From Streptomyces puniciscabiei (GTDB taxonomy: Bacteria > Actinomycetota > Actinomycetes > Streptomycetales > Streptomycetaceae), in assembly GCF_006715785.1 (NCBI RefSeq), contig NZ_VFNX01000001.1, positions 2,184,501 to 2,248,500 of the forward strand: 64,000 nt of DNA. Reading direction: 5' to 3'. The position numbers were made by a program, and so were the translations under genes. The notes beneath the pieces are model-generated. The model had not been told where the DNA came from and did not search any database. It was given only the letters and a program-made list of their open reading frames with translations. Positions within the stretch are counted from its first letter, which is position 1. Each line of letters starts with the position of its first letter. Of the stretch, positions 4,078 through 62,070 are shown in pieces.

Positions 4078-5307
4078 GTGTCCGCACCGAAGACGACCGG
4101 CCGGCGATCCCTGCTGGTCACCTCAGCCACCCTGCTGTCGCTGTCCGCCACCGCGCCCGCCGCCCTCGCCGCCCCCGCCCCCTCCGCAGACCCGACGGCC
4201 ACGCCCCCGGCCCGGATGTCGACCGTGGGCGGTGTTCGGCTGGGCCAGCCGGGCACGCAGGTCAACCTCGCGCCGGGTGTCCCGGTGCTGCCGAAGGACA
4301 TCACCGCGCGCTCCTGGATCGTCACCGACGCCGAGTCCGGCGAGGTGCTCGCCGCACACAACGCGCACTGGCGGCTGCCCCCGGCGAGCACGCTGAAGAT
4401 GCTGTTCGCCGACACCCTGCTGCCCCGCTTCCCGAAGGACGAGAAGCACAAGGTGGTGCCGGCCGACCTCGCGGGCATGGGCGTCGGCTCCAGCGTGGTC
4501 GGGATAAAGGAGGGGCACACCTACTCCGTCCACGACCTGTGGCTCGGGGTCTTCCTGCGCTCGGGCAACGACGCCGTGCACACGCTGGCCTCGATGAACA
4601 ACGGCGTCGCGCAGACCGTCAAGGACATGCAGGACCACGCCGACGAACTGCAGGCCCTGGACACGCACGTGGTCTCGCCCGACGGCTACGACGAGCCGGG
4701 GCAGGTGTCGTCGGCGTACGACCTGACGCTGATCGCCCGGTCCGGGCTGCAGAAGAAGGACTTCCGCGACTACTGCTCGACCGTCAGCGCCAGGTTCGAG
4801 TCGCGCGAGATCCGCAACACCAACCGGCTGCTGAGCGGTGACCCGGACGTGCCCGTCTACCAGGGCATCGCGGGCGTGAAGAACGGCAACACCACCAACG
4901 CGGGCGCCACCTTCACCGGGGTCGCCGAGCGGGGCGGCAGGGTGCTGCTCGTCACGGTGATGCATCCGGAGAAGGCCGAGCACAACGAGGTCTACAAGGA
5001 GACGGCCAGGCTGTTCGACTGGGGTTTCCAGGCGGCCGGCAAGGTCAATCCGGTGGGCGAGCTGGTGCCGCCGAAGAGCGTCCTGCCGAGCCCGGGGGCA
5101 AGCGCGTCCGCCGGGGACTCCGCGAAGGGCGGCGGATCCGGCGCCAGGCCGGTGGCCGGTGCCACCGCCGGCTCCGGCTCCGGCTCCGGCATCGGCACCG
5201 CCGCCGCCATCACGGGCGGCGTGCTGGTGCTGCTCGCGGGCGCGGCGTTCCTGGTCAACCGCCGGTGGCCGCTGCCGGACCTGATGCGCCGTCGGCCGCG
5301 CCCCTAG
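4078..5307 (+). CDS. D-alanyl-D-alanine carboxypeptidase (penicillin-binding protein, S11 family)
   Basis: A 409-residue DacA/DacC-like enzyme that trims the terminal D-Ala of peptidoglycan stem peptides outside the membrane. The catalytic motifs are S104-T-L-K107, S-G-N at about 162, and K-N-G at about 268 in place of the usual KTG. It starts with a twin-arginine-like basic signal (TTGRRSLLVTS, then an Ala-rich cleavage region APAALAAPAP) and ends with a Ser/Gly linker, one TM helix and a basic tail. The start is the GTG at 4078 after an AAAGG; an ATG far upstream at 3895 would overlap the divergent gene. The 3' end overlaps the convergent YihY gene by 53 bases. Confidence 0.9.
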   Translation: MSAPKTTGRRSLLVTSATLLSLSATAPAALAAPAPSADPTATPPARMSTVGGVRLGQPGTQVNLAPGVPVLPKDITARSWIVTDAESGEVLAAHNAHWRLPPASTLKMLFADTLLPRFPKDEKHKVVPADLAGMGVGSSVVGIKEGHTYSVHDLWLGVFLRSGNDAVHTLASMNNGVAQTVKDMQDHADELQALDTHVVSPDGYDEPGQVSSAYDLTLIARSGLQKKDFRDYCSTVSARFESREIRNTNRLLSGDPDVPVYQGIAGVKNGNTTNAGATFTGVAERGGRVLLVTVMHPEKAEHNEVYKETARLFDWGFQAAGKVNPVGELVPPKSVLPSPGASASAGDSAKGGGSGARPVAGATAGSGSGSGIGTAAAITGGVLVLLAGAAFLVNRRWPLPDLMRRRPRP

Positions 5308-26985: not shown

Positions 26986-29010
26986 GTGGGTTACGACTCG
27001 ACGCCGTACGACACGGTGTCACACGTGGACGACCCGGTGCCGTACGACACACCGGCGCGCGACGACAGCCCGACCGCCCGTGCCCTGATCGCCCTGGAGC
27101 TGCTGCAGGGCAGCCCGGGCATCACCGCCGCCCGGCTCGCGGAGCGGCTCGGGGTGTCCGAGCGGGCCGCCCGGCGGTACGTCGCCATCCTGCGCGAGGC
27201 CGGGATCCCGGTGGAGTCGGCGCGCGGCCCGTACGGCGGTTACCGGCTCGGCAGGGGCGTCCGGCTGCCACCGCTGGTGTTCTCGGCGCGGGAGGCGCTC
27301 GCCCTGGTGATGGCGGTGCTGGACGGCCATCACGACGCGGCGGATCCGGCCGGGCCGGTGGGCGCGGCGCTCGGCAAGCTGCTGCGGGCGCTGCCGGAGC
27401 CGGTCGCCGCGCCCGCCGCCGCGGTCCGCACGGTGGACACCCGCGGCGGCGATCCCCACGCCTCCGCCCCCGCTCCGGACACCACGGCCGCCCTCGTCGG
27501 GGCCGCGGCCGGCCGGCGACGGCTGCGCCTCGGCTACGACCTCGGGCGCAGGGGCGTACGGGAGATGGAGGTGGACCCGTGGGCGGTGGTGGTCCGGCAC
27601 GGCCGCTGGTATCTGCTGTGCTGGTCGCACACGGCTCACGCGCGCCGGGTGCTGCGGCTGGACCGGGTCACCTCGGTCGCCGCGCTGGACTCCGGCTTCA
27701 CTCCCCCGCCCGGCCTGGACCCCCTGGAGACCGTCGAGGAGCATCTCTCGGAGGGCTGGGCACACGCGGTGGAGGTGCTGATCGACGCGCCGGCCGCGGA
27801 GGTCGCCGAGTGGCTGCCCCGCAGTCTGGGCCGGCCCGAACCCCTCCCGGACGGTGGCACCCGCCTGGTGGCCACGACCGATGAGCCGGCCTGGTACGTC
27901 CGGCAGATCGGCCTGCTCCCGGTGCCGTACCGGATCGCCGGCTCGGCGGAGGTGCGCCGGGCCGCTCGGGAGCTGGGCAGCCGGCTGCTGTCCGCGGCGG
28001 GGGGCGAGGGCGTGCGGGCCGACCAGGGCACGGGGATCGACGGCACGGGGATCGACGGCACGGAGGTCTCTGACTACAGTCAAAGAATGACAGCCTTTGA
28101 CCAGGGTGAAGGAACACCGGTCCGGGCGGAGGACGTGGCCGCCTTCCGCCGCTTCAACCGGTACTTCACACGCCGTATCGGCGTCCTGGACGACCATTAC
28201 CTCGGCCAGGACCGCCCGCTCGGCGAGGCCCGGCTGCTGTTCGAGATCGGTGACGGGGTGTCGCTGCGGGAGCTGCGCGGGCGGCTCGGTCTGGACGCCG
28301 GGTATCTCAGCCGGATGGTGAAGGCGCTCCAGGCGCAGGGCATGGTCCGGCTCGCGGTGCCCGCGCACGACAACCGACTGCGGATGGCCGAGCTCACCCC
28401 GGCCGGACACGCGGAGGTCGCCGAGCAGCAGCGCCGGGCCGATGCCCTGGCCGCCGGCGTCCTCGAAGGCCTCACCCCGGCCCAGCGGGCCGAGCTGGCC
28501 GGGGCCATGGCGACCACGGAGCGGCTGCTGCGGCTGGCCGGGATCACCGTGGAGAGCGTCGACGGCGCCTCGCCGGACGCGCGGGCCTGCCTGGACGCCT
28601 ACGCGGCGGACATCGACGCGCGCTTCCCCGAGGGCTACGACAAGGCGGCCCTGGTACGTCCCGAGGAGGTGACCGGGGAGGCCGGCGCCTTCCTGGTGGC
28701 GTACGAGGAGCGGCGGCCGGTGGGGTGCGGGGCGCTCAGAAGCCTGGCACCCGGGGCCGGTGAGATCCGGCACGTGTGGGTGCACCCGGAGGCGCGCCGG
28801 CTGGGGCTCGCGCGGCGGCTGCTGGCGGGGCTGGAGCGGGAGGCACTGCGGCGGGGCCTCGCGGTCGTACGCCTGGACACGCACACCGTGCTCACCGAGG
28901 CACAGGCGATGTACCGGGCGTGCGGGTACACCGAGATCCCGCGCTACAACGACGACGTCTACGGCGGGCACTGGTTCGAGAAGCGGCTACTTCCCGGCGG
29001 CGGCGCCTGA
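26986..29010 (+). CDS. WYL-domain regulator in frame with a MarR-GNAT protein (apparent fusion)
   Basis: One open frame of 674 residues from GTG 26986, which has GGAGGG at good spacing. Residues about 25-80 form an HTH_11 winged helix (GITAARLAERLGVSERAARRY). Residues about 150-300 form a WYL domain with WYLLCWSHTAHARRVLRLDR. A Gly/Asp/Thr linker with a duplicated 15-base unit (ACGGGGATCGACGGC twice) follows. From about residue 368 come a MarR domain (LRELRGRLGLDAGYLSRMVKAL) and a GNAT acetyltransferase (HVWVHPEARRLGLARRLLAGLE). MarR-GNAT proteins of about 307 residues usually stand alone, so this is either a true fusion or two genes whose separating stop was lost. The 3' end overlaps the convergent LysR gene by 24 bases. 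Confidence 0.65.
   Translation: MGYDSTPYDTVSHVDDPVPYDTPARDDSPTARALIALELLQGSPGITAARLAERLGVSERAARRYVAILREAGIPVESARGPYGGYRLGRGVRLPPLVFSAREALALVMAVLDGHHDAADPAGPVGAALGKLLRALPEPVAAPAAAVRTVDTRGGDPHASAPAPDTTAALVGAAAGRRRLRLGYDLGRRGVREMEVDPWAVVVRHGRWYLLCWSHTAHARRVLRLDRVTSVAALDSGFTPPPGLDPLETVEEHLSEGWAHAVEVLIDAPAAEVAEWLPRSLGRPEPLPDGGTRLVATTDEPAWYVRQIGLLPVPYRIAGSAEVRRAARELGSRLLSAAGGEGVRADQGTGIDGTGIDGTEVSDYSQRMTAFDQGEGTPVRAEDVAAFRRFNRYFTRRIGVLDDHYLGQDRPLGEARLLFEIGDGVSLRELRGRLGLDAGYLSRMVKALQAQGMVRLAVPAHDNRLRMAELTPAGHAEVAEQQRRADALAAGVLEGLTPAQRAELAGAMATTERLLRLAGITVESVDGASPDARACLDAYAADIDARFPEGYDKAALVRPEEVTGEAGAFLVAYEERRPVGCGALRSLAPGAGEIRHVWVHPEARRLGLARRLLAGLEREALRRGLAVVRLDTHTVLTEAQAMYRACGYTEIPRYNDDVYGGHWFEKRLLPGGGA
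28068..28085. promoter_or_regulatory. Palindromic operator at the WYL/MarR junction
   Basis: CTCTGACT-AC-AGTCAAAG: the inner TGACT/AGTCA arms are exact and the outer CT/AG also pair. It lies one base before the internal ATG 28087. MarR-type regulators commonly bind such short inverted repeats in their own promoters; the link to this protein is inference. Confidence 0.5.
28087..29010 (+). CDS. Possible separately translated MarR-GNAT protein from an internal start
   Basis: The ATG at 28087 begins MTAFDQGEGTPVRAEDVAAF, the usual start of Streptomyces MarR-GNAT proteins, and gives 307 residues, the normal length. A palindrome (28068-28085) sits immediately before this ATG, as expected for an autoregulated MarR promoter, and GGAGG occurs at 28062-28066, rather far away. 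The downstream frame encodes an HTH of MarR type and an acetyltransferase with the acetyl-CoA loop RRLGLARR. It may therefore be an independent gene lying in frame with the WYL gene. Confidence 0.5.
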   Translation: MTAFDQGEGTPVRAEDVAAFRRFNRYFTRRIGVLDDHYLGQDRPLGEARLLFEIGDGVSLRELRGRLGLDAGYLSRMVKALQAQGMVRLAVPAHDNRLRMAELTPAGHAEVAEQQRRADALAAGVLEGLTPAQRAELAGAMATTERLLRLAGITVESVDGASPDARACLDAYAADIDARFPEGYDKAALVRPEEVTGEAGAFLVAYEERRPVGCGALRSLAPGAGEIRHVWVHPEARRLGLARRLLAGLEREALRRGLAVVRLDTHTVLTEAQAMYRACGYTEIPRYNDDVYGGHWFEKRLLPGGGA

Positions 29011-50013: not shown

Positions 50014-52146
50014 TCAGCCCTGGTACTGGATGCCCTGTGCGGCGCCCGGCACGCCGTACCCGTCCGGGACACCCCGGAAGTGCGGGAGGTCCGGCTGCTC
50101 CCGGAGGCCCTGGAGGCTTGGGAGGCCGCGGGAGTCCTGGAGGTACGCCGGTACGGCCGTACGGGTGACCCCTGCGCCCCCGTCGACGGCGTGCCCCGCC
50201 AGCGAGCCGCCGGCGTCCCGCACCGTGCCATGGACGTCCTGGGCGAACCCTCCGGCCCGCTGGACGACCGGAGCTGCCGTACCGGCGACCCCGGCCACGA
50301 AGGGCCCGGTCCCGCCCGCGACGCCATGAGCCAGCCCGGTGGTGCTCCCGGCGACGCCGTCGGCCACCGGCAGCACGGTCCCGCCGACCTGACCGGCCAC
50401 GGGAGCCACGGTCCCGGCCACCTGGTACGCGGTGCCCGTCGCGGTCCCGGCCACCTGGTACGCGGTGCCCGTCGCGGTCCCGGCCGCCTGGTACGCGGTG
50501 CTCGTGGCGGTGTCCGCCGTCTGCGTGACCGTGGACGTGACGGTGCCGGTGAGCGGGGCCGTCGCGCCGGTGACTCCGGCCGCGAAGGGCGGCACCTGAG
50601 CGGTGACGCCGCCGGCGAAGGCTCCGGTCTGCGCGGTCAGACCGTGCGCGAGCGGGGGTACGGCGCCGACGGCACCGCCCGCGAAGGGCTGGACATCACC
50701 GGCCACACCGTGGCCGAGGGCGCCCGCGTCCGCGACGGCCTGCCCGGCGACCGGCACGACCCCGTGCACGGCACCGGCGGCCACCGGCGGCAGCACCGCG
50801 TCCGTGGCGTCCTGCGCGACCTGCCCGGCCAGTCCGCCGGCGTACGCCGTGGCACCCGCGGCCACCGGCCGCACATCGCCTGCGGCGCCCAGGGCGACCC
50901 CGTGCACCCCGGACACGGCGCCCCCGGCCGTCCCGTACGCACCGGACACAGTGCCCCCGGCAGTCCCGTACGCACCGGGGGCGGTGTGCGCGGCGGTTCC
51001 GTATGCCCCCGACACGGCGGCCCCGGCGGTCCCGTACACCCCCGATACTGCGCCCTCGGCGACGCCCAGTGCCCCGGAGACCGTGCCCCCGGCGGCCGAG
51101 TGCACGGCGGGCACGGCGTGCCCGACGGTCCCGTACCCGCCCGCCGCCGCGTGCGCTGCCGTGCCCCGCAGGCCCGTCACAGCCTGGCCGGCGACCGGCA
51201 CCGCACCGTTCAGTGCCGTGGCGGCCACCGGGGGAAGGGCGGCGTCGGTCGTCTCGTCCACCACCGGGGTGACCGCACCGGGCACGGCCCGGACCGTGCC
51301 GACGACCCGCTGCGCGGCGCCCGTGGCCGTACCGGTGATGTGCGCGGGCACACCCGCGACGGAGGCCTCGGCCGCGCCGGCCGCCCCGGCCGCCATTGCG
51401 CTCACGGCGTGCGCGGCACCGGCGGTCCGGCCCTGCGCCGCGGCGACGGTCTGCTGCGCCGTCGTCCGTACGGCGCCCTCGACACCCTGCGCCTTCAGGC
51501 GGGCGGCCGTCTGGGCGGCCTGGAGCTTGGTCTGGGCGGCGGCCAGCGCCTGCTCCAGCTCGGGCGCGAAGGAGGAGAGCGGGCCGAAGAGGTAGTCGAT
51601 CTCGTCCTGCGGGGTGACGTGGGGGACGGCCCGGGAGGCGGTCCGGGCGGCGTGCGCAGCCGTGTGGGCGGCATGGGCGGCGGGTCCGGTGACGTGCGTG
51701 CCGTCGGCCTGGACACGGGCCTGCACGTGCGGCTGCGCCTTACGGGCCGCCTGAGCGCCCTTGACCGCCTCGGCACCCCGGATCTTCGCGGCGGCCGGGA
51801 CCTTGGCGTCGACGTAGCGGCGGGCCTGGTCGGCGGTGCCGGTGGCGGTGGACGCCGTCGAGGTGAGCGAGGTGGAGGAGGCGGCCGGGGCGGCGGGGGT
51901 GGCCGCGGTGGCCGTGCCGGTCAGGCCGGAGACGGTGCCTGTGACGGTGTTCTGAACTCCGGACACGGTGTCATGGACGCCGCTGAGGACGCCGTCGACC
52001 GTCCCGGCGACGCTGTCGGTGCCCGCGTCCGGGACGGAGACGGAGCTGGTGGACAGCTCGTCGGCGCTGGCGACGGCCGAGCCGAGCGCCCACGCGCCGG
52101 TGACACCGGCGGCTATCACGATCGAACGGCGGATGTTCTTGTTCAT
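50014..52146 (-). CDS. Large secreted Ala/Gly/Val-rich repetitive protein
   Basis: About 710 residues. A signal peptide (MNKNIRRSIVIAAGVTGAWALGSAVASA) is followed by a Thr/Ser/Ala-rich stretch, a helical part with VTPQDEIDYLFGPLSSFAPELEQAL, and about 450 residues of degenerate repeats: GAYGTAGG(A/T)VSG, PVAGQAV and ATGTAYQVAG units. No cysteine is apparent and no LPxTG or TM end is seen, so it should be released. It could be a structural surface or matrix protein. ATG 52146 is chosen because it begins the signal peptide; the AAAGGA site is 13 bases upstream. No family is recognised. Confidence 0.72.
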   Translation of the reverse strand: MNKNIRRSIVIAAGVTGAWALGSAVASADELSTSSVSVPDAGTDSVAGTVDGVLSGVHDTVSGVQNTVTGTVSGLTGTATAATPAAPAASSTSLTSTASTATGTADQARRYVDAKVPAAAKIRGAEAVKGAQAARKAQPHVQARVQADGTHVTGPAAHAAHTAAHAARTASRAVPHVTPQDEIDYLFGPLSSFAPELEQALAAAQTKLQAAQTAARLKAQGVEGAVRTTAQQTVAAAQGRTAGAAHAVSAMAAGAAGAAEASVAGVPAHITGTATGAAQRVVGTVRAVPGAVTPVVDETTDAALPPVAATALNGAVPVAGQAVTGLRGTAAHAAAGGYGTVGHAVPAVHSAAGGTVSGALGVAEGAVSGVYGTAGAAVSGAYGTAAHTAPGAYGTAGGTVSGAYGTAGGAVSGVHGVALGAAGDVRPVAAGATAYAGGLAGQVAQDATDAVLPPVAAGAVHGVVPVAGQAVADAGALGHGVAGDVQPFAGGAVGAVPPLAHGLTAQTGAFAGGVTAQVPPFAAGVTGATAPLTGTVTSTVTQTADTATSTAYQAAGTATGTAYQVAGTATGTAYQVAGTVAPVAGQVGGTVLPVADGVAGSTTGLAHGVAGGTGPFVAGVAGTAAPVVQRAGGFAQDVHGTVRDAGGSLAGHAVDGGAGVTRTAVPAYLQDSRGLPSLQGLREQPDLPHFRGVPDGYGVPGAAQGIQYQG
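50398..50510 (-). repeat. 33-base coding repeats in the 50014 gene
   Basis: The plus strand reads GTCCCGGCCACCTGGTACGC plus GGTGCCCGTCGCG three times in a row (last unit slightly changed). On the coding strand this gives A-T-G-T-A-Y-Q-V-A-G-T units. The copies are nearly identical, so the array is recent. Confidence 0.7.
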
Positions 52147-52350
52147 TGCGTGCGTCAAGTCCTTTGGACATGGCCGGAAACGGCCGGGATCGGCTGGGGG
52201 TGCCGTCCGGAGACCGCTGAACGCCGGTCGCGCTGACGCTTCGACGGCTGACGGTGCTCGACAGCGCTGATCGCTGGAGGGTCCGGACGGACGGGCAGAC
52301 CTGTTCCGCCCCCGCTCGACAGGTCCGTGGCGGGAGGTCGGCCCTGCTGC

Positions 52351-53396: not shown

Positions 53397-54575
53397 TCAC
53401 ACCGTGTCCGGTATGGGAAGCGGCCGCTTCTCCAGTGCGGCGGCCATGACCTCGGGGAACAGGTCCGGTGTGCACGCGAAGGCCGGTGCGCCGAGCGCGG
53501 CGAGCGCAGCCGCGTGCTCCCGGTCGTACGCGGGCGCGCCCTCGTCCGACAGCGCGAGCAGCGCCACGAACTGCACCCCGGACGCCTTCATCGCCGCCAC
53601 CCGCTTGAGCATCTCGTCGCGGATGCCGCCCTCGTAGAGGTCGCTGATCAGCACGACCACGGTCTCGGCGGGCCGGGTGAGCTGTGACTGGCAGTAGGCC
53701 AGCGCCCGGTTGATGTCCGTGCCGCCGCCGAGCTGGGTGCCGAACAGGACGTCGACCGGGTCGTCCAGCTGGTCGGTGAGATCGACCACCGCCGTGTCGA
53801 AGACGACCAGCCGAGTGCTGATCGACCGCATGGAGGCGAGGACCGCACCGAACACGGACGCGTAGACCACGGACGCGGCCATCGACCCGGACTGGTCGAT
53901 GCAGAGGATGACTTCCTTCTTCACGGACCGGGCGGCCCGCCCGTATCCGACGAGGCGTTCCGGCACGACCGTGCGGTACTCGGGCAGGTAGTGCTTGAGG
54001 TTGGCGGCGATGGTGCGGTTCCAGTCGATGTCGTGGTGGCGCGGGCGGCTGATCCGCGCGCTGCGGTCGAGGGCGCCGGTGAGGGTGGCCCGCGTACGGT
54101 TCGCGAGCCGCTTCTCCAGGTCCTCCACGACCTTGCGCACGACCGCGCGTGCCGTCTCCCGCGTCGTCTCCGGCATCGCCTTGTTCAGCGAGAGCAGCGT
54201 GCCGACCAGGTGCACGTCCGCCTCCACCGCTTCCAGCATCTCCGGCTCCAGCAGCAGGGCGGCGAGGCCGAGGCGGTCGATGGCGTCGCGCTGCATGACC
54301 TGGACGACGGAGGACGGGAAGTACGCACGGATGTCCCCGAGCCAGCGCGCCACCGACGGCGCCGAGGCCCCGAGCCCCGCCGAACGGCCGTGCCCCGCCT
54401 GCGGCTTGTCGCCCTTGCCGTAGAGCGCGGCCAGCGTGCCGTCCATCGCCGCGTCCCGCCCGGACAGCGCGCATCCGGTGCCGTCCGCCTGCTCCCCACC
54501 GAGCACCAGCCGCCAGCGCCGCAACCGCTCCCGCGCCGGGTCGAGCACCTCGGTCGATGTCGGTCCGGTCGTCAT
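53397..54575 (-). CDS. VWA-domain protein of the MoxR/DUF5682 cluster (YehP-like)
   Basis: 392 residues, cytosolic (no signal or TM). The N-terminal half is helical and charged (RARATLTGALDRSARISRP, HHDIDWNRTIAANLKHYLPEYRT). The C-terminal half is a von Willebrand A domain with a complete metal site: D-Q-S-G-S-M (CIDQSGSMAAS), the Thr in LGGGTDINRAL and the Asp in LISDLYEGG. In MoxR systems the VWA protein usually brings the AAA+ ATPase to its target. Its ATG overlaps the DUF5682 stop by four bases. It is the last gene of the MoxR-DUF5682-VWA operon. Confidence 0.88.
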   Translation of the reverse strand: MTTGPTSTEVLDPARERLRRWRLVLGGEQADGTGCALSGRDAAMDGTLAALYGKGDKPQAGHGRSAGLGASAPSVARWLGDIRAYFPSSVVQVMQRDAIDRLGLAALLLEPEMLEAVEADVHLVGTLLSLNKAMPETTRETARAVVRKVVEDLEKRLANRTRATLTGALDRSARISRPRHHDIDWNRTIAANLKHYLPEYRTVVPERLVGYGRAARSVKKEVILCIDQSGSMAASVVYASVFGAVLASMRSISTRLVVFDTAVVDLTDQLDDPVDVLFGTQLGGGTDINRALAYCQSQLTRPAETVVVLISDLYEGGIRDEMLKRVAAMKASGVQFVALLALSDEGAPAYDREHAAALAALGAPAFACTPDLFPEVMAAALEKRPLPIPDTV

Positions 54576-57040
54576 GTGCCCACCTCCACAAGGCGTTTGG
54601 CGTCTGCCGTCTCGGGCTGTCCGTCCAGGCCGAGCAGCAGCCGCAGTACCGGTAGTACGGCGTCGGCGCGCCCGGTGTCCGGCTCGGCGGCGAAGCCGGG
54701 GGTCACGGCTCCGTGGGCCGCCTGGTCCCCCGGTCCGCGCCGGACCAGTTCGCCGAGCGTTCTGCGCACCCCCGGCTCGTACGCCGCGAACGTGCGCCGC
54801 AGCAGCGGCAGTACGTCCGTGAACGCCTCCGCCGGCACCCCGGTCAGCCAGCCGTCCACCAGGCCTAGCAGCCGCTCGTCGTGCACCAGCAGCAGTCCGC
54901 CCCCGCCGCCGACGAAGCCCTCGATCCAGGCGGCGGCGTCGGCGGGCGGCGTCCCCGGCGACAGCGCGAGCCCCATCAGCCGCGCCGCCTCCTCGGGTCC
55001 CAGCTCACCGTCGTCCAGCAGCAGCCGCACCGCCCGCCCCCGGAGCACCCCGGGCACACTGTCACGCGAGGACAGGATCCGCAGCACCGCTCGCCAGCGG
55101 CCGCGCAGTTCACCGTGCCCGGCACCGGGGACGGCACCGCCATCCGCACCGCCCCCGATACGCCCACCGGCCCCGGCGCCGGTCGCGGTCGGTGTCTCCG
55201 CCAGCAGCCCCACCGCTGTGTGCACGCCGTCCACATGGCCGCGCATCTCGTTGGCCGCGTCCGTGTCGAGCGCGGCGCACGCCGGGGGCAGGCCGACGAA
55301 GACGCGTTCGGCGAGGCCCACGGCCACGCCGGCCAGCGCGCGGGTGTCGGTGCCGCGCACGTCGCCGTACCGCAGGGAGCGGACCAGGGCGGGCAGGGCC
55401 TGGGCGAGATGGCCCACGTCGGCGTCGAGCGCGGCCCGGTCGGCGAGCACCCGCATGACCACGGGCAGGGCGTCCGGCAGCCCGGCGAGCAGGCACTGCT
55501 CGGCGAGCGCGGTGACGTCGGCGAGAGTGCGCGCGGCCGTCGCGTCCGCCTCGGCCTTCGCCTGTGCCGCGCCCAGTACGGTCGTCCCCCACACGCCCGC
55601 CTCGGCGACCCGCACCGACAGCTCGGGTTCCCAGCGCAGCCGCCACGTCTCCCGGAAGGTGCCCGTGCTCCCGCGTGACCGCGTCGGCTCGCCCCAGTCG
55701 ACGCCGAGCAGCCGGAGCCGGTGCAGCAGCCTGCTGCGGCCGGCGTCGGTGTCGCCGCGCAGGTCCAGCTCGAGTTCGCGCTCCAGCGCCTCGGGTTTGA
55801 GCCGCAGCGAACGCTGCTGCCGCGTCAGGTCGCGCTGCAGCGGCACCGCGGGCGCCGACTCCGGGACCTCCCCGAGGACGTCCCCGACCACCAGCCGGTC
55901 GTGCACCAGCGCCAGCGGCACGTCCGAGCCGTCGCCCATCACCGCGCGCACCGCGTCGGTGGTCTCACCCAGGCCGGGCAGCGGGCGCCCGCGCAGTGCC
56001 GCCAGGGTCTCGGCGAGCCGGACGGCCTCGATGACGTGGGCGGAGGACACGATCCGGTCCTCCTCGCGCAGCAGCCGCGCCACCTTGGTCAGCCACCGCT
56101 CGACCGGCCGGTCGGGGGCGTGGAACAGATGGCCGTACCAGCCCGGCGAGTCGATGCCCGCGCCGTACCCGCTGGACCGGGCGAGCCTGCGGTGGGTCCA
56201 GGGCACCCAGGTCAGGTCCGCCTTGACCTTGGGCAGCCCCTTCAGCAGGGACCGGTCCGCGGTGACCGTGGTCCTCTCGCGCAGGGCGGGCACATGCCAG
56301 GCCCCGCAGACCACGGCCACCTCGTCACCGAACTCCTTGCGCGCGGCGCGCAGCCGGAGCCGCATGTGCGCCTCGCGGACCAGGTCCCGGGAGTGCCCGC
56401 CCACGCCGTACCGCTCGCGGAGGGCGCCCATCGCCTCCTCCAGTGCGCCGAAGGGCGAGAAGGGGTCCCGCTCCCCCGGGCCCCGGTGCTCGACCACGTC
56501 CTCCCACCAGCGTTCGGGATCGTCGTACCCGGCGGCCTCGGCAAGCACGGCGAGCGGGTCGACCCGGACCTGCTCACCGCCGTCCCGTCCGTCACCGGCG
56601 CGCTGCGGATCCTCCGCGGTGCTCTTCTCTTCCTCCCCCTCCCGCTCGCTCCCCCGCCTCTCTTTCTCCTCCCTCTCTCTTCCCTGCCATGCGAGCGTGT
56701 GCGCGGCCGGCAGGTCGATGAAGTGGGCCGGGACGCCGTGCCGCAGGGCCCAGCGGATCGCCACCCATTCGGGGCTGAACTCGGCGAACGGCCAGAAGGC
56801 CGAGCGGCCCGGCTCATCGACGGCATGGGCGAGCAGGGCGACCGGGGGCCGCAGTTCGGGGTCGGCGGCCAGCGGGATCAGCGCGTCGGCCTCGGGCGGC
56901 CCCTCGATCAGGACGGCGGCGGGCCGGGCGGCGTCCAGGGCGCCGCGCACCGCGCGGGCGGAGCCGGGGCCGTGGTGCCGCACGCCCAGCAGGAGCGGTC
57001 CGCAGCCGTGCGCCCTCGGCCAGCGCGTGTCGTCGGTCAT
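54572..57040 (-). CDS. DUF5682 family protein (YehM-like)
   Basis: 822 residues. The N-terminal part resembles a TraB/EreA-like domain: LLLGVRHHGPGSARAVRGAL with the H-H-G-P-G-S motif, VLIEGPPEAD, HFIDLP, and later VVCGAWHVPAL. A charged Glu/Arg/Lys insertion lies at about 138-175. The C-terminal half is helical and Leu/Ala-rich. This is the DUF5682 family, found beside MoxR and VWA genes. The function is unknown; the motifs suggest a hydrolase-like site. It overlaps its neighbours by four bases on both sides (ATGA), so stoichiometric production is likely. Confidence 0.82.
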   Translation of the reverse strand: MTDDTRWPRAHGCGPLLLGVRHHGPGSARAVRGALDAARPAAVLIEGPPEADALIPLAADPELRPPVALLAHAVDEPGRSAFWPFAEFSPEWVAIRWALRHGVPAHFIDLPAAHTLAWQGREREEKERRGSEREGEEEKSTAEDPQRAGDGRDGGEQVRVDPLAVLAEAAGYDDPERWWEDVVEHRGPGERDPFSPFGALEEAMGALRERYGVGGHSRDLVREAHMRLRLRAARKEFGDEVAVVCGAWHVPALRERTTVTADRSLLKGLPKVKADLTWVPWTHRRLARSSGYGAGIDSPGWYGHLFHAPDRPVERWLTKVARLLREEDRIVSSAHVIEAVRLAETLAALRGRPLPGLGETTDAVRAVMGDGSDVPLALVHDRLVVGDVLGEVPESAPAVPLQRDLTRQQRSLRLKPEALERELELDLRGDTDAGRSRLLHRLRLLGVDWGEPTRSRGSTGTFRETWRLRWEPELSVRVAEAGVWGTTVLGAAQAKAEADATAARTLADVTALAEQCLLAGLPDALPVVMRVLADRAALDADVGHLAQALPALVRSLRYGDVRGTDTRALAGVAVGLAERVFVGLPPACAALDTDAANEMRGHVDGVHTAVGLLAETPTATGAGAGGRIGGGADGGAVPGAGHGELRGRWRAVLRILSSRDSVPGVLRGRAVRLLLDDGELGPEEAARLMGLALSPGTPPADAAAWIEGFVGGGGGLLLVHDERLLGLVDGWLTGVPAEAFTDVLPLLRRTFAAYEPGVRRTLGELVRRGPGDQAAHGAVTPGFAAEPDTGRADAVLPVLRLLLGLDGQPETADAKRLVEVGT

Positions 57041-58209
57041 GCGCTCACCTCCCGGCAGGCGCGGTAGAAGTCCGTCCAGCCCTCGCGCTCGCGGACGACC
57101 GTCTCCAGGTACTCCTGCCAGACGACCCGGTCGGCCGCCGGGTCACGCACGACGGCACCGAGGATGCCGGCGGCGACATCGCCCGGCCGCAGCACACCGT
57201 CCCCGAAGTGCGCGGACAACGCCAGACCGTTGGTGACGACGGAGATCGCCTCTGCCGTGGACAGCGTGCCGCTGGGCGACTTCAGCTTGGTGCGGCCGTC
57301 GGCGGTGACGCCGTCGCGCAGCTCACGGAAGACGGTCACGACCCGGCGGATCTCCTCGATGCCGTCGGGCGCGGCCGGCAGGTCCAGCGAGCGGCCGATC
57401 TGCTCGACCCGGCGGGTGACGATGTCGACCTCGGCGTCGGCACTCTCCGGCAGCGGCAGCACCACGGTGTTGAAGCGGCGGCGCAGTGCGCTGGAGAGGT
57501 CGTTGACCCCTCTGTCCCGGTCGTTGGCGGTGGCGATGAGGTTGAACCCGCGGACCGCCTGGACCTCCTGGCCCAGCTCCGGGATGGGCAGGGTCTTCTC
57601 GGACAGGATCGTGATCAGCGTGTCCTGGACGTCGGCCGGGATACGGGTCAGTTCCTCCACGCGGGCTGTCATGCCCTCAGCCATGGCGCGCATGACGGGG
57701 CTGGGCACGAGGGCGTCGCGGCTCGGCCCGTGCGCGAGCAGCTGCGCGTAGTTCCAGCCGTAGCGGATCGCCTCCTCCGGGGTGCCGGCCGTGCCCTGCA
57801 CCAGCAGGGTGGAGTCACCGCTGACGGCGGCCGCGAGGTGCTCCGAGACCCAGGTCTTGGCGGTGCCGGGCACGCCGAGCAGGAGCAGGGCGCGGTCGGT
57901 GGCGAGTGTGGTGACGGCGACCTCGACGATCCGGCGCGGGCCCACGTACTTGGGGGTGATCACGGTGCCGTCCGGCAGGGTGCCGCCGAGCAGGTACGTC
58001 GCCACCGCCCACGGCGACAGCTTCCAGCGAGCCGGGCGCGGACGGTCGTCCTGCGCGGCGAGTGCGGCGAGTTCGGCGGCGAAGGCGTGCTCGGCGTGCG
58101 GTCGCAGCGCCTGCGCGGTCCCGGACGCGCCCTCACCGGCGGTCGGTTCGGCGGTGGTCGGTCGCACGGGCGCAGACGCAGACGTGGCAGAAGCAGACAT
58201 GGCTGACAT
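57037..58209 (-). CDS. MoxR-family AAA+ ATPase (YehL-like)
   Basis: 390 residues. An Ala/Ser/Thr-rich N-terminal end leads to the AAA+ core: Walker A LLGVPGTAKTW (G-x-P-G-T-A-K-T), the segment GTAGTPEEAIRYGWNYAQLLAHG, sensor/Walker B region RIPADVQDTLITILSEKTLPIP, NLIATANDRDRGVNDLSSALRRRFN with sensor 1 and the arginine finger. It is a chaperone-like ATPase working with the VWA protein. ATG 58209 follows GGAGGGG; it is the first gene of the operon and divergent from the SWIM gene (132 bases apart). Confidence 0.9.
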   Translation of the reverse strand: MSAMSASATSASAPVRPTTAEPTAGEGASGTAQALRPHAEHAFAAELAALAAQDDRPRPARWKLSPWAVATYLLGGTLPDGTVITPKYVGPRRIVEVAVTTLATDRALLLLGVPGTAKTWVSEHLAAAVSGDSTLLVQGTAGTPEEAIRYGWNYAQLLAHGPSRDALVPSPVMRAMAEGMTARVEELTRIPADVQDTLITILSEKTLPIPELGQEVQAVRGFNLIATANDRDRGVNDLSSALRRRFNTVVLPLPESADAEVDIVTRRVEQIGRSLDLPAAPDGIEEIRRVVTVFRELRDGVTADGRTKLKSPSGTLSTAEAISVVTNGLALSAHFGDGVLRPGDVAAGILGAVVRDPAADRVVWQEYLETVVREREGWTDFYRACREVSA

Positions 58210-58341
58210 GGCTGAGGCCCCCTCCAGCTCGGCCGGTTCGGATCTGGCATCCACCGTGCACCACGCCACTGACAATCGCCCTGACCTGCGCAAACGCCCA
58301 CGTCGGACGGATTGTCAGTGGCGGGACCTACCGTCGGAGAC

Positions 58342-59697
58342 ATGACTGAGCAGGGGGTGCGCTGGACCGCGGACCAGGTGCTGTCACTGGCGCCTGACGC
58401 CGCGTCACGCAAAGCGGGAGGCAAGCTCGGCACGGCCGGTCCGTGGTCCGAGGCGGGGAGCGGAGAGGGGACGGTGTGGGGGCTGTGCAAGGGCAGCGGC
58501 AGCAGGCCTTACCAGACGGTGGTCGATCTCGCCGACCCGGCCGGACCGGCGTACAAGTGCAGTTGCCCGAGCCGTAAGTTCCCGTGCAAGCACGCGCTCG
58601 GACTGCTACTGCTGTGGACGGGAGACGACGGCACGGTGCCTGCGTCCGCCCAGCCGCCGGACTGGGCCGAGCAGTGGCTCGCGGGCAGACGCAGGCGCGC
58701 CGAGAACAAGCAGGGCCCGGGCGAAGGCAGTTCCGCGGGCGGGGCCGCCGATCCGGAGGCGGCCCGGCGGCGGGCCGAGCGCCGGGCCGAGCGGGTCACC
58801 GCGGGTGCGACCGAGCTGGAGCAGCGCCTCGCGGACCTGCTGCGCGGCGGCCTGGCCGCAGCCGAGCAGGCGGGGTACGGCCTGTGGGACGAGACGGCGG
58901 CCCGCATGGTCGACGCCCAGGCCCCCGGACTGGCCTCGCGGATCCGGGAGTTGGGCGCGATCCCGGCATCGGGCGCGGGCTGGCCGGCCCGGTTGCTGGA
59001 GGAGTGCGCGCTGCTGCACCTGCTCGACCAGGGCTGGTTGCGCCGCGACCACCTGCCGGACGCCCTCGCGGCCACGGTCCGCTCCCGGCTCGGCCTGCCC
59101 GCCGCGGCGGACGGTGCCCCTCTCCGCGACCGCTGGCTGGTCCTCGCCCAGTACGACACGGTGGACGCGAAGCTGACGACCCGCCGGGCATGGCTGTACG
59201 GAGCCGGCTCGGGCCGCACCCGGCTGCTGCTGTCCTACGGCGCGGCCGGCCGGGCTCCGGAGCTTTCCCTGCCGGTCGGGCTGGCCCTGGACGCGGAGCT
59301 GTCCGCCTATCCGGGATCAGGCCAGTCCCGGTCCGCCCTGGGCGAGCGGTTCTCCCCGCCCGCACCGGCGGCGTTCCGCCCGCCGGGCACAAGCACGGCC
59401 GAGGCGGCGGCCCGGTACGGCGAGGCGCTGCGCGACGACCCCTGGCTGGAGTCCGTCCCGGTGACCCTGGACCGGGTGATACCGGTCCCGGACGGCGACG
59501 AGTGGCAGCTCGCCGACGCCGACACCGACCTTGCCCTGCCGCTGACCCGTGCCGCCCGCTCCCGCCCCGGCCTGTGGCGGCTGGTCGCCCTGTCCGGCGG
59601 CGCCCCGGTCACGGTCTTCGGCGAGTGCGGCCACCGCGGCTTCACCCCGCTCACGGCCTGGCCGGGCGGCACGGGCGAGGCGGTGCCACTGTGCTGA
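58342..59697 (+). CDS. SWIM zinc finger protein (YehQ-like)
   Basis: 451 residues. The SWIM motif is visible at about residues 73-86 as YKCSCPSRKFPCKHALG (C-x-C-x6-C-x-H). It is followed by a Gly/Arg/Ala-rich charged linker and a C-terminal region of unknown fold (WLVLAQYDTVDAKLTTRRAWLYG; ITVL-type strands). SWIM domains bind DNA or proteins. It is divergent from the MoxR gene and followed by the DUF5691 gene after 55 bases. ATG 58342 follows TCGGAGA, rather close. Confidence 0.87.
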   Translation: MTEQGVRWTADQVLSLAPDAASRKAGGKLGTAGPWSEAGSGEGTVWGLCKGSGSRPYQTVVDLADPAGPAYKCSCPSRKFPCKHALGLLLLWTGDDGTVPASAQPPDWAEQWLAGRRRRAENKQGPGEGSSAGGAADPEAARRRAERRAERVTAGATELEQRLADLLRGGLAAAEQAGYGLWDETAARMVDAQAPGLASRIRELGAIPASGAGWPARLLEECALLHLLDQGWLRRDHLPDALAATVRSRLGLPAAADGAPLRDRWLVLAQYDTVDAKLTTRRAWLYGAGSGRTRLLLSYGAAGRAPELSLPVGLALDAELSAYPGSGQSRSALGERFSPPAPAAFRPPGTSTAEAAARYGEALRDDPWLESVPVTLDRVIPVPDGDEWQLADADTDLALPLTRAARSRPGLWRLVALSGGAPVTVFGECGHRGFTPLTAWPGGTGEAVPLC

Positions 59698-59752
59698 CCG
59701 GCATGCCGGAACGCGCTCACACCCCTCGCAGACTCCCAGGAAAGGAAACGCG

Positions 59753-61447
59753 ATGAACGGGACGGCCTCGACCGGCGTGAACACCATGGCACCCGCAAGC
59801 TCCTGGGAAGACCTCGTCACCACGGCTCTCCTCGGCACCGACCGGCGCCCCCCGGCGTACGCCCGGTCCGGCCGGGAGGCGCCCCTGGCGCTGCTCGACG
59901 AGGCCGCCGTGGCGACCGTACGGCGGCGCGCCGGGCTGCGGCCCGCGCGGGCGGCACGCCGGCCGGACCCGGCGCCCGAGGACCCCCGCCCGGCCCTGCC
60001 CCCGGCGGCGGCCCGCAGACTCGCCACACTGCTGGCCGACCGTTCCGGCGGCGGAAGCGGTGGCCGCCGGGGCAGCTCACCGGACCTCATGGAGCTGCTC
60101 CCCCAGTGGCTCGCGGCGGCCAACGCGCACGGATACGCGGCACCTCCGCAGACGCTCCCCGCCCTGCTGGACGCGGCCCGGGGCCGTACGGACCTGCGCC
60201 CGGCGGCGCTGGCGTTCGCGGGACCGCGGGCGCTGTGGCTGGCCCGGCTGAACGCGGACTGGCGCTTCGCGCTGCGCGCGGCCCCCGGCGGCGGTGCCAC
60301 GCTGCCCGGGCCCGGCGACACCGAGGCGGTGCGCAGGCTGTGGCAGGAGGGGCTGTTCGCCGAGCGGGTGGCCCTGCTGGGCGCGCTGCGCGCCGCTGTG
60401 CCCGCGCTCGCGCGTGAGCTGCTCGCGTCGACCTGGCCGACGGAGCGGGCGGAGGACCGGCTGATGTTCCTCGACTCGCTGCGCACGGGCCTGTCCGCCG
60501 CGGACGAGCCGTTCCTGGAGCAGGCCTTGGGCGACCGCAGTCGCAATGTGCGTGCTACGGCGGCGGAACTGCTGTCGGCGCTGCCCGCTTCGGCCCTCGC
60601 CGCGCGCATGGCCGTACGGGCTGCGGCGTGTGTGGCCCTCGATCACGCGGGGAACTCGCCGGCGATCGTGGTGGAGGCGCCGCTCGAGTGCGACTCAGGC
60701 ATGGAGCGGGATGGTGTGGTGGCCACACCTCCCGCGGGCAGAGGGGAACGGTCATGGTGGCTGGGGCAGTTGGTGGAGGCGGCGCCGCTGGGCACGTGGC
60801 CGGGGCGGCTCGGCGGACGTACGGCGGAGCAGATCGTGGCGCTGCCGGTGACGGACGGCTGGCAGGGCGAACTGCACGCGGCCTGGTGCCGGGCCGCCGT
60901 GCGGCAGCGGGACGCCGAGTGGTCGAGGGCGCTGCTCGGCTCACCGTCGGCGCCCGAGGCCGGCGGGCCGGGCGCGGTGTCGCTGGCGGAGCGCGCGAAG
61001 CTGCTGGCCACCCTGGACCGGGCGGAACGGGCCGCGTGGGTGGCCGGGTTCATCGCCACGCACGGACTGTCGGAGGCGTTCCAGCTGCTCGGGGTGTGTG
61101 CGGTGCCCTGGGCCGCGCCGCTGGGCCGGGCTGTCGTCGACGCGCTGAACATCGCGCGCGACGCGGGCAGTTACCCCTGGAGCTTCAGCGGAGTGATGGG
61201 GCTGGCCGAGCGCTGCCTGGACCCCGCGGAGGCCACCCGGCTCGAGGCGCTGCTGGCGATACCGGACGAACGGGAGGACGCCGCGCCGGGAGCCGGCGGC
61301 TACTGGGCGGAGGCGTTCCAGCGGCTGGTGACCACGCTGCGGCTGCGGGCGGAGATGGCCGCGGAACTCGCCCCGGGCCGCTCCCCGCTCACCGGACCGT
61401 CGGCCCGACCGCCGCAGGCAGCCGATCAGCCGGACGCGGCGGGCTGA
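59753..61447 (+). CDS. DUF5691 family protein
   Basis: 564 residues, all-helical and rich in Ala, Leu and Arg. It begins [17 protein letters not shown], a hallmark of the family that accompanies SWIM and MoxR genes, and has HEAT-like stretches ([45 protein letters not shown]). No enzyme motif is seen; it may be a scaffold. ATG 59753 follows AAAGGAAA. It follows the SWIM gene in the same direction, and its 3' end overlaps the convergent B12-protein gene by 22 bases. Confidence 0.85.
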
Positions 61448-61845
61448 CGGACGTTCTCCCGCACCCACTCCACGATCGACGCGGTCGTCGCGCCCGGCGT
61501 GAAGATCTCCGCGACGCCCTTCTCCTTCAGCGGCGGAATGTCCTCGTCCGGGATGATGCCGCCGCCGAAGACGAGGATGTCCTCGGCCTCGCGCTCCTTG
61601 AGCAGGTCGATCACCGCGGCGAACAGCGTGTTGTGCGCGCCGGACAGGATGGACAGGCCGATCGCGTCGGCATCCTCCTGGATCGCGGTGTCCACGATCT
61701 GTTCCGGCGTCTGGTGGAGCCCGGTGTAGATGACTTCCATGCCGGCGTCGCGCAGGGCACGCGCGATGACCTTGGCCCCCCGATCGTGGCCGTCGAGCCC
61801 CGGCTTGGCGACGACCACGCGGATCGGACCGGCTGCCACACCCAT
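61426..61845 (-). CDS. icmB: B12-binding small subunit of an acyl-CoA mutase (IcmB-like)
   Basis: 139 residues consisting of one cobalamin-binding Rossmann domain. The base-off motif is visible as [18 protein letters not shown] (D-x-H-x-x-G), with [11 protein letters not shown] and [19 protein letters not shown] further on. This is the size of IcmB, the small subunit of isobutyryl-CoA mutase, which pairs with a separate large subunit (IcmA) to interconvert isobutyryl- and n-butyryl-CoA. No large subunit gene is in this window. ATG 61845 is preferred over upstream ATGs as it starts the domain. Its 3' end overlaps the DUF5691 gene. Confidence 0.85.
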
Positions 61846-62070
61846 CACTGCCTCCATCAAACGACCACGGAAGCGATCGCTTCCGTCCGTAACGACAAGT
61901 ACCGCACTTTTGGCGCGTTCCGCCACCCGTCGCGAAGTGAACGAACGTTATCTCCAGCATCCCGCAACCGGCAGTTTTACGGTGCGCAGCGAGGGGGAAA
62001 TCACATGGTGGGACATGAGGGCACACGGGGGATCGAGCCGTCCTCCGGCGTGCCGACAGGAGGTCGGCCC

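Follow-up and report, generated by a model that had tools for sequence, protein, structure and literature searches.

A five-gene MoxR/VWA cluster of Streptomyces with a conserved DNA-damage-type promoter and probable kinship to Deinococcus ddrTUVWX

The 64,000-nucleotide stretch analysed here (the window) comes from the 9.15 Mb genome of Streptomyces puniciscabiei (contig NZ_VFNX01000001.1, positions 2,184,501 to 2,248,500). At window positions 53397-61447 it carries a cluster of five genes that encode a MoxR-type ATPase, a VWA protein and SWIM, DUF5682 and DUF5691 proteins. Three genes lie on the minus strand: a CoxE-like VWA protein related to YehP (53397-54575; 392 amino acids (aa); Pfam VWA_CoxE, 210 bits), a DUF5682 protein related to YehM (54572-57040; 822 aa; Pfam DUF5682, 1017.6 bits with the full model covered) and a MoxR-type AAA+ ATPase related to YehL (57037-58209; 390 aa; Pfam AAA_5, 127.7 bits). 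The plus strand encodes a SWIM zinc-finger protein (58342-59697; 451 aa; Pfam SWIM, 26.9 bits against a cut-off of 19.6) and a DUF5691 protein (59753-61447; 564 aa; Pfam DUF5691, 579 bits). The SWIM score is over its curated cut-off and the other four are far over theirs. An earlier description made from the letters and open reading frames (ORFs) alone, the sequence-only reading, had listed these five genes, two ATGA overlaps and a 132-base gap. ORFs and Pfam matches place all five genes where it had put them, the overlaps are present at VWA/DUF5682 and DUF5682/MoxR, and the gap (58210-58341) is exact given a MoxR start at the ATG of 58209. DUF5691 also has an in-frame GTG further up, at 59549, but its ATG at 59753, which follows AGGAAAGGAAA, is the preferable start.

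The 132 bases between the MoxR and SWIM genes form a divergent promoter region. We take TTGTCRGTG-N8-TANNNT to be the consensus of PafBC/RecA-NDp DNA-damage promoters. An exact match, TTGTCAGTG-N8-TACCGT, faces SWIM on the plus strand (58312-58334) and ends 7 nucleotides (nt) before the SWIM ATG; a second, weaker site, TTGTCAGTG-N8-CACGGT, faces MoxR on the minus strand (58253-58275), the first base of its -10 element being C for T. Together the two facing sites make a perfect inverted repeat with arms of 14 bases (58264-58277 and 58310-58323). The RecA-NDp motif of PafBC is named in PMC6789036 and PMC8223512, and PafBC in mycobacteria is described as activated by single-stranded DNA (PMC11804915). 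SCO6735 of S. coelicolor is reported to have a RecA-NDp promoter and to be inducible by ultraviolet light, and a primer in the same paper reads CTGTCAGTG-N8-TACGGT six bases before the ATG of that gene (PMC5087735).

Genome-wide, 41 exact sites were found, against none with a reversed-pattern control. The gene behind each of the other 40 was taken by script as the first long GC3-rich ORF, a rough rule that yielded 38 proteins (two sites gave none); a start codon lies 5-9 nt past the motif at 25 of these 40 sites. Among the matches listed, the genes include RecA, UvrA, UvrB, PcrA/UvrD, RadA, DnaX, RuvC, MgsA/RarA and AlkZ. Two adjacent WYL matches (C1:5804513 and 5805505), 2.3 kb after a Pup-ligase match, are putative pafB and pafC, an assignment that is likely because they stand in the expected place beside Pup-ligase genes (Pup_ligase matches at C1:5794316 and 5800919). 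The other sites also offer unstudied regulon candidates: a SUKH-4 protein and a DUF4253 protein among the Pfam matches listed, together with two proteins judged by eye only, L129 (helical repeats) and L131 (propeller-like).

Conservation of the promoter was read in 76 of 80 named loci (78 of the 80 are Streptomyces), the four in which SWIM or MoxR is missing being set aside. Facing SWIM, the site is exact in 66 of the 76 loci, nearly all Streptomyces, and has at most one mismatch in 70; the nine-base half TTGTCAGTG faces MoxR in 69, usually with CANNNT as the -10 element. A same-genus set of 16 loci, drawn from 26 same-genus genomes with DUF5691 besides the window's own, has the SWIM-facing site exact in 16/16 and the MoxR-facing site with at most one mismatch in 14/16; this set and the named one may share species, and related species are not independent. 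Other families contributed 31 loci, 28 of them reaching the SWIM gene. Sites occur in 15 of these 28 (three exact, four with one mismatch, eight with two), compared with 1.6% of random windows from the same loci, and 14 of the 15 share one register, with the site 6-8 nt ahead of the start codon. Three of four loci of family f18 have a degenerate version in that register, with three or four mismatches. The Frankia-like f18 loci L060, L062 and L064 carry the degenerate form TGTCGGA...CANNNT, as if the promoter had drifted with its regulator. DNA-damage control of the five genes is well supported by these sequence comparisons, and the stress role suggested by the sequence-only reading is upheld and narrowed to DNA damage by the promoter site, its regulon, its conservation and the Deinococcus literature discussed below.

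Genome comparison indicates that the five genes form one system. In 296 genomes of the same class searched with both profiles, DUF5682 matched in 75 (E 0.001; 73 over the cut-off) and DUF5691 in 63, and all 63 also have DUF5682. The two lie at most 8 kb apart in 60 of the 63; the remaining three have them on separate contigs, a match lying at the end of a contig. Of 60 loci read at length, 47 proved to have a DUF5682 of the window type and 13 one of type B (see below) or more distant. All five genes were found by tblastn in 43 of the 47 window-type loci; three of the incomplete ones (L044, L050, L063) run into the end of their contig, and in L052 DUF5691 is partial by Pfam and was missed by tblastn. 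The Streptomyces arrangement is divergent, with all five genes in 68 of the 80 named loci and partial sets in 12. In other actinobacterial families all genes found point one way, in the order SWIM-DUF5691-MoxR-DUF5682-VWA. This order is also annotated in Deinococcus taeanensis and Rhizobium, is kept by the single operon of Hymenobacter and recurs in Methylosinus, where the VWA gene is unannotated and was found by tblastn only. Fusions join neighbouring genes. SWIM and DUF5691 are a single gene in Hymenobacter HDW8 and share one frame in 7 of 44 SWIM ORFs (L056, L058, L060, L061, L062, L064, L079); DUF5682 and VWA are fused in a second cluster of the S. puniciscabiei genome and, to judge from ORF length, in six further loci. 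GC-rich DNA can contain long frames by chance, but the fused ORFs encode both domains in one frame. The proposal of a complete machine made by the sequence-only reading thus draws support from the 63/63 co-occurrence, the operon order conserved across phyla and the gene fusions. On a plasmid of Hymenobacter radiodurans (L213), DUF5682 is annotated in three overlapping pieces and SWIM/DUF5691 in two overlapping ones; on the sister plasmid L216 those genes are whole, so that L213 is either a broken copy or affected by sequencing errors.

In the type B form MoxR, DUF5682 and VWA are retained, while DUF4132 takes the place of DUF5691. Examples are the second cluster of the same genome, clusters in Iodobacter and Allorhizobium, one on a Streptomyces atratus plasmid and yehI-yehQ of E. 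coli. Its last gene is annotated as SWIM in the three proteobacterial clusters and encodes a protein of no assigned family in the two Streptomyces ones. DUF5691 and DUF4132 look like alternative partners. Five of the 13 type B or more distant loci (L066, L067, L070, L075, L078) have a PafBC-type site with at most one mismatch on the MoxR strand, four of them exact, and in the S. atratus plasmid cluster such a site differs at one base. A LexA-like box of 20 bases (CTG-N10-CAG, 13/20 consensus) in E. coli K-12 ends 7 nt before yehF, which we take to be part of molR, and yehL lies about 8 kb downstream on the same strand. By itself this box is weak, since it reaches only 13/20 and a 14/20 LexA-like site also lies inside yehM; the weight falls on papers that list molR as a LexA/SOS gene (PMC4576408, PMC3978071). 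MolR is also described as a member of the LexA regulon in PMC8533742.

The sequence-only reading credited the gene set with no known role, which overlooks a related, radiation-induced operon of Deinococcus. In D. deserti the five genes Deide_18730-18690 were named ddrTUVWX and placed in the radiation and desiccation response (RDR) regulon (PMC5552922). Table 2 of that paper gives Deide_18730, 18720, 18710 and 18690 as radiation-induced, IrrE-dependent and behind an RDR motif (RDRM), and an RDRM precedes the first operon gene in each analysed Deinococcus that has the operon. The presence of DUF5691 and DUF5682 in the D. deserti operon is judged from D. taeanensis and not from the D. deserti sequences. 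The best RDRM-like 17-mer upstream in D. taeanensis (4732-4748) lies 19 bases before the SWIM start and matches 12/17 of the RDRM consensus, a score of at least 12 being reached by 4 of 200 shuffles, which is suggestive only. As early as 2009 the MoxR and VWA members were proposed to be a chaperone system (PMC2669436). In D. radiodurans, drA0165-drA0166 (DUF4132) and dr2173 go up on DdrO depletion and not in irradiated irrE-deleted cells (PMC8533742). Like ddrTUVWX, the window locus combines five linked genes with a promoter site for a damage regulator, although the regulator differs. The gene set and its radiation induction in Deinococcus are already known. New, as far as searches of open-licence literature can show, are the PafBC-type promoter of the actinobacterial form, the divergent Streptomyces rearrangement and the single theme that unites ddrTUVWX, yehLMPQ and the type B clusters. 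That literature, supplementary tables not covered, gave no paper naming DUF5682, and a search for DUF5691 or DUF4132 matched through DUF4132 only.

The MoxR protein carries a Walker A motif (GVPGTAKT) and an RRRF motif in the alignment. Its Walker B reads EE in all six aligned proteins, the usual form being DE. Seven PDB sequences matched it; these relatives are midasin and NorQ, the small ones being NorQ. In the partner protein the VWA_CoxE domain covers residues 157-376 of 392, and the metal site is intact as the sequence-only reading had stated, the motifs of the metal ion-dependent adhesion site (MIDAS) type DQSGSM, GGGTD and SD all being present. DQSGSM, GGG and D312 are invariant in five aligned proteins; D. 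taeanensis departs at the T, E. coli at the D that follows. Identity to the E. coli proteins is 39% for MoxR and YehL, 36% for VWA and YehP and 28% for DUF5682 and YehM. MoxR ATPases and their VWA partners act as motor and adaptor in RavA-ViaA and NorQ-NorD. The MoxR and VWA scores stay below the curated ncbifam cut-offs for ViaA (23.1 against 500 bits), GvpN (32.4 against 266.8) and MadB (43.1 against 475). MoxR1 and MoxR2 are reported to be lower in an M. smegmatis pafBC mutant (PMC5656591).

The predicted model of the DUF5682 protein (predicted local distance difference test (pLDDT) score 87.3) has an N-terminal alpha/beta domain and a helical C-terminal half. The N-terminal domain holds the motifs RHHxP, ExP, DLP and GxxH. 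Across 85 sequences E46, P48, D109, G246 and H249 are invariant, and R21, H22, H23 and P25 are conserved in at least 90%. In the model H22, H23, E46, D109 and H249 sit just past strands 16-20, 42-45, 105-107 and 241-246. Since conserved polar residues at strand ends are in the usual place of an active site, these residues would form a candidate one. Catalysis is plausible but unproven, conservation alone pointing to a hydrolase. The SWIM protein retains an intact CxCPSRxFPCKH pattern (CSCPSRKFPCKH, residues 73-84; 58558-58593, plus strand), and C-x-C-x6-C-x-H is invariant across seven aligned proteins from four phyla. In characterised examples, SWIM fingers bind DNA or DNA-repair partners. The window SWIM gene is the counterpart of the first gene of ddrTUVWX. 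The predicted model of the DUF5691 protein is nearly all helix (pLDDT 85.2).

On balance, we propose that the cluster is probably the Streptomyces form of ddrTUVWX, one DNA-damage-induced MoxR/VWA remodelling machine. PafBC would induce transcription of SWIM-DUF5691, probably from the SWIM ATG or right beside it, and probably that of the divergent MoxR-DUF5682-VWA genes as well. The MoxR ATPase ring and the VWA protein would serve as motor and substrate adaptor, as in RavA-ViaA and NorQ-NorD. DUF5691 may be a helical scaffold that links the SWIM zinc finger to this motor, and the SWIM protein would provide the targeting, either to damaged DNA or to a protein engaged in repair. There the motor would remodel or extract a target protein, whose nature is a guess, and the N-terminal alpha/beta domain of DUF5682, with its conserved H, H, E, D and H, would probably hydrolyse or modify that target. 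The unity of the system and its conserved damage-type promoter rest on sequence evidence, while the motor action of MoxR/VWA and the targeting part given to SWIM are suggested by what is known of their families.

Several observations weigh against this proposal. The MoxR-facing site departs from the consensus at its -10 element, and some genes behind the other sites, among the matches listed, are unconnected with repair (those for ribosomal protein S6, FolB and a luciferase-like enzyme). Outside Streptomyces, all 14 loci with an in-register site belong to one family (f17), and 13 of the 28 other-family loci have no site with up to two mismatches just upstream of SWIM; in three of these 13 (L055, L056, L058), whose start is poorly placed, a site with one mismatch stands farther up. 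Neither the named Nonomuraea locus nor the Nocardia one has the site (0/2), although both carry all five genes. With the patterns tried, no LexA box was found near the operon starts of the alphaproteobacterial loci or of the Iodobacter locus. In D. deserti, Deide_18700, the remaining gene of the operon, is not mentioned in the text of PMC5552922. Damage induction does not entail a role in repair, since D. radiodurans and D. geothermalis are without the ddrTUVWX operon (PMC5552922, PMC2669436). For DUF5682, a PDB sequence search gave no relative at E 1, and structural comparison covered mainly the helical C-terminus. The TraB-like label of the sequence-only reading could not be confirmed: TraB is absent from the Pfam matches up to E 1, and hhalign with the TraB protein YbaP pairs CGAWHV with VGALHL at a probability of 0.4%, no significant match.

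Other explanations account for parts of the data. The cluster could be a chaperone for cofactor insertion or enzyme maturation in the style of NorQ-NorD or CbbQ-CbbO, dedicated to one enzyme and under damage control only incidentally. NorQ among the seven PDB matches of MoxR and the weak ncbifam matches to MadB, GvpN and ViaA would fit this, but to our knowledge the NorQ-NorD, CbbQ and RavA-ViaA systems are without SWIM, DUF5691 or DUF5682 partners, and no enzyme stands out as a shared target in the annotated neighbourhoods read. MolR once linked the E. coli neighbourhood to molybdate, yet moeA and moeB showed no response alongside the Deinococcus genes (both PMC8533742), and we judge a maturation chaperone unlikely. 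MoxR-vWA pairs are also the core of ternary conflict systems (PMC7159879), so that a device for phage defence or programmed death, turned on by DNA damage and using DUF5682 as its effector, has to be considered. A type B cluster on a mobilizable Iodobacter plasmid adjoins restriction genes, and damage control would fit a phage alarm. Set against this, none of the five proteins matches PADLOC (E 0.01), the VWA domain ends at residue 376 of 392 and leaves no C-terminal effector, no VMAP, iSTAND, FtsH or propeller appears among the Pfam matches with E up to 1, and bpMoxR scores 22.9 bits against a cut-off of 27. The architecture is constant in 68/68 complete named loci, whereas great variability is given as a hallmark of conflict systems (PMC7159879). 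The conflict role floated by the sequence-only reading is thus not supported, and we regard it as decidedly unlikely.

A proteostasis machine of general scope, clearing damaged protein in many kinds of stress of which DNA damage is only one, would make good use of an AAA+ motor, an adaptor and a possible hydrolase, and the Deinococcus regulon answers radiation and desiccation (PMC5552922), stresses that also harm proteins. The promoter is nevertheless of the DNA-damage type and links the genes to recA, uvrA and uvrB, while the SWIM finger points to DNA or DNA-repair partners; this broader role seems improbable to us. The divergent layout itself admits the reading that two loosely related operons merely share a promoter region, the inverted repeat being the operator of another regulator and its likeness to PafBC sites a matter of chance. 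The perfect 14-base repeat made by the facing sites and the atypical MoxR-facing -10 element would agree with it. One-operon families, however, have no divergent gap, yet 14/28 of their loci keep the motif, with at most two mismatches, at the same spot ahead of the SWIM start; the 41 genomic sites stand against 0 in the control, several at DNA-repair genes; and DUF5691 never occurs without DUF5682 in the 296 genomes. We consider such a coincidence very improbable.

A wider version of the proposed remodelling machine can be put forward only tentatively. A pan-bacterial DNA-damage machine would have a core of MoxR, VWA, DUF5682 and SWIM, with DUF5691 or DUF4132 as alternative scaffolds, and in different phyla its forms would answer to three unrelated damage regulators, PafBC, DdrO and LexA. 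DUF5682 would then be a new damage-site hydrolase fed by the motor, for example one that removes proteins stuck to DNA. Such a machine could have gone unrecognised because its parts carry DUF names. Relatives of the five genes are listed under 'unknown function' in Deinococcus, as ddrTUVWX, and are uncharacterised in E. coli, as yeh genes; the DNA-damage theme that links them opens a question posed in the literature in 2009 to direct tests in common laboratory strains. Should the machine work at damaged DNA, the bacterial damage response would gain a remodelling step by an AAA+ protein and possibly a new hydrolase family. A Streptomyces-like genome also lets a PafBC-type regulon be recognised, and that regulon contains unstudied members.

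Elsewhere in the window, a gene for a B12-binding-domain protein (61426-61926, minus strand) overlaps the end of the DUF5691 gene with its own end by 22 bases. A 714-aa ORF rich in Ala, Gly and Val (50014-52158, minus strand), with a start that resembles a signal peptide by eye, lies in the most GC-rich 2-kb stretch of the window (78%). A WYL-domain match (27484-27678, plus strand) falls within a 750-aa ORF.

Among known systems, RavA-ViaA and NorQ-NorD share with the window cluster a MoxR AAA+ protein with Walker A adjoining a VWA protein with MIDAS motifs. The ternary conflict systems likewise have a MoxR ATPase adjoining a vWA protein, but are described with a third component and with variable effectors C-terminal to the vWA domain (PMC7159879), neither of which was found in the window cluster. 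The second cluster of the same genome (G000:C1 6508-6519 kb, L066) has MoxR, DUF5682 and VWA and an exact PafBC-type site before its first gene; it differs in having a DUF4132 gene and a 1668-aa protein instead of DUF5691, and in its fused DUF5682-VWA. The last protein of L066 has no Pfam match at E 0.01 and is SWIM-like by eye. In E. coli, yehI-yehK-yehL-yehM-yehP-yehQ contains homologues of MoxR, DUF5682 and VWA in the same order, followed by a SWIM gene, with DUF4132 (yehI) adjoining. The sequence-only reading had equated the partner set with yehLMPQ. This stands for YehL, YehM and YehP; YehQ shares the SWIM match only (no blastp hit, E 0.01), DUF4132 is present, and DUF5691 matched none of the six E. 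coli yeh-cluster proteins scanned. The D. taeanensis operon has the same five families in the same order, plus one small extra gene. In ddrTUVWX itself there are five genes with SWIM first, a MoxR-like gene third (Deide_18710) and a CoxE-like VWA gene last, under DNA-damage control (PMC5552922); it is a single operon governed by the repressor DdrO with IrrE, whereas the window cluster is divergent and has a promoter of the PafBC activator type.

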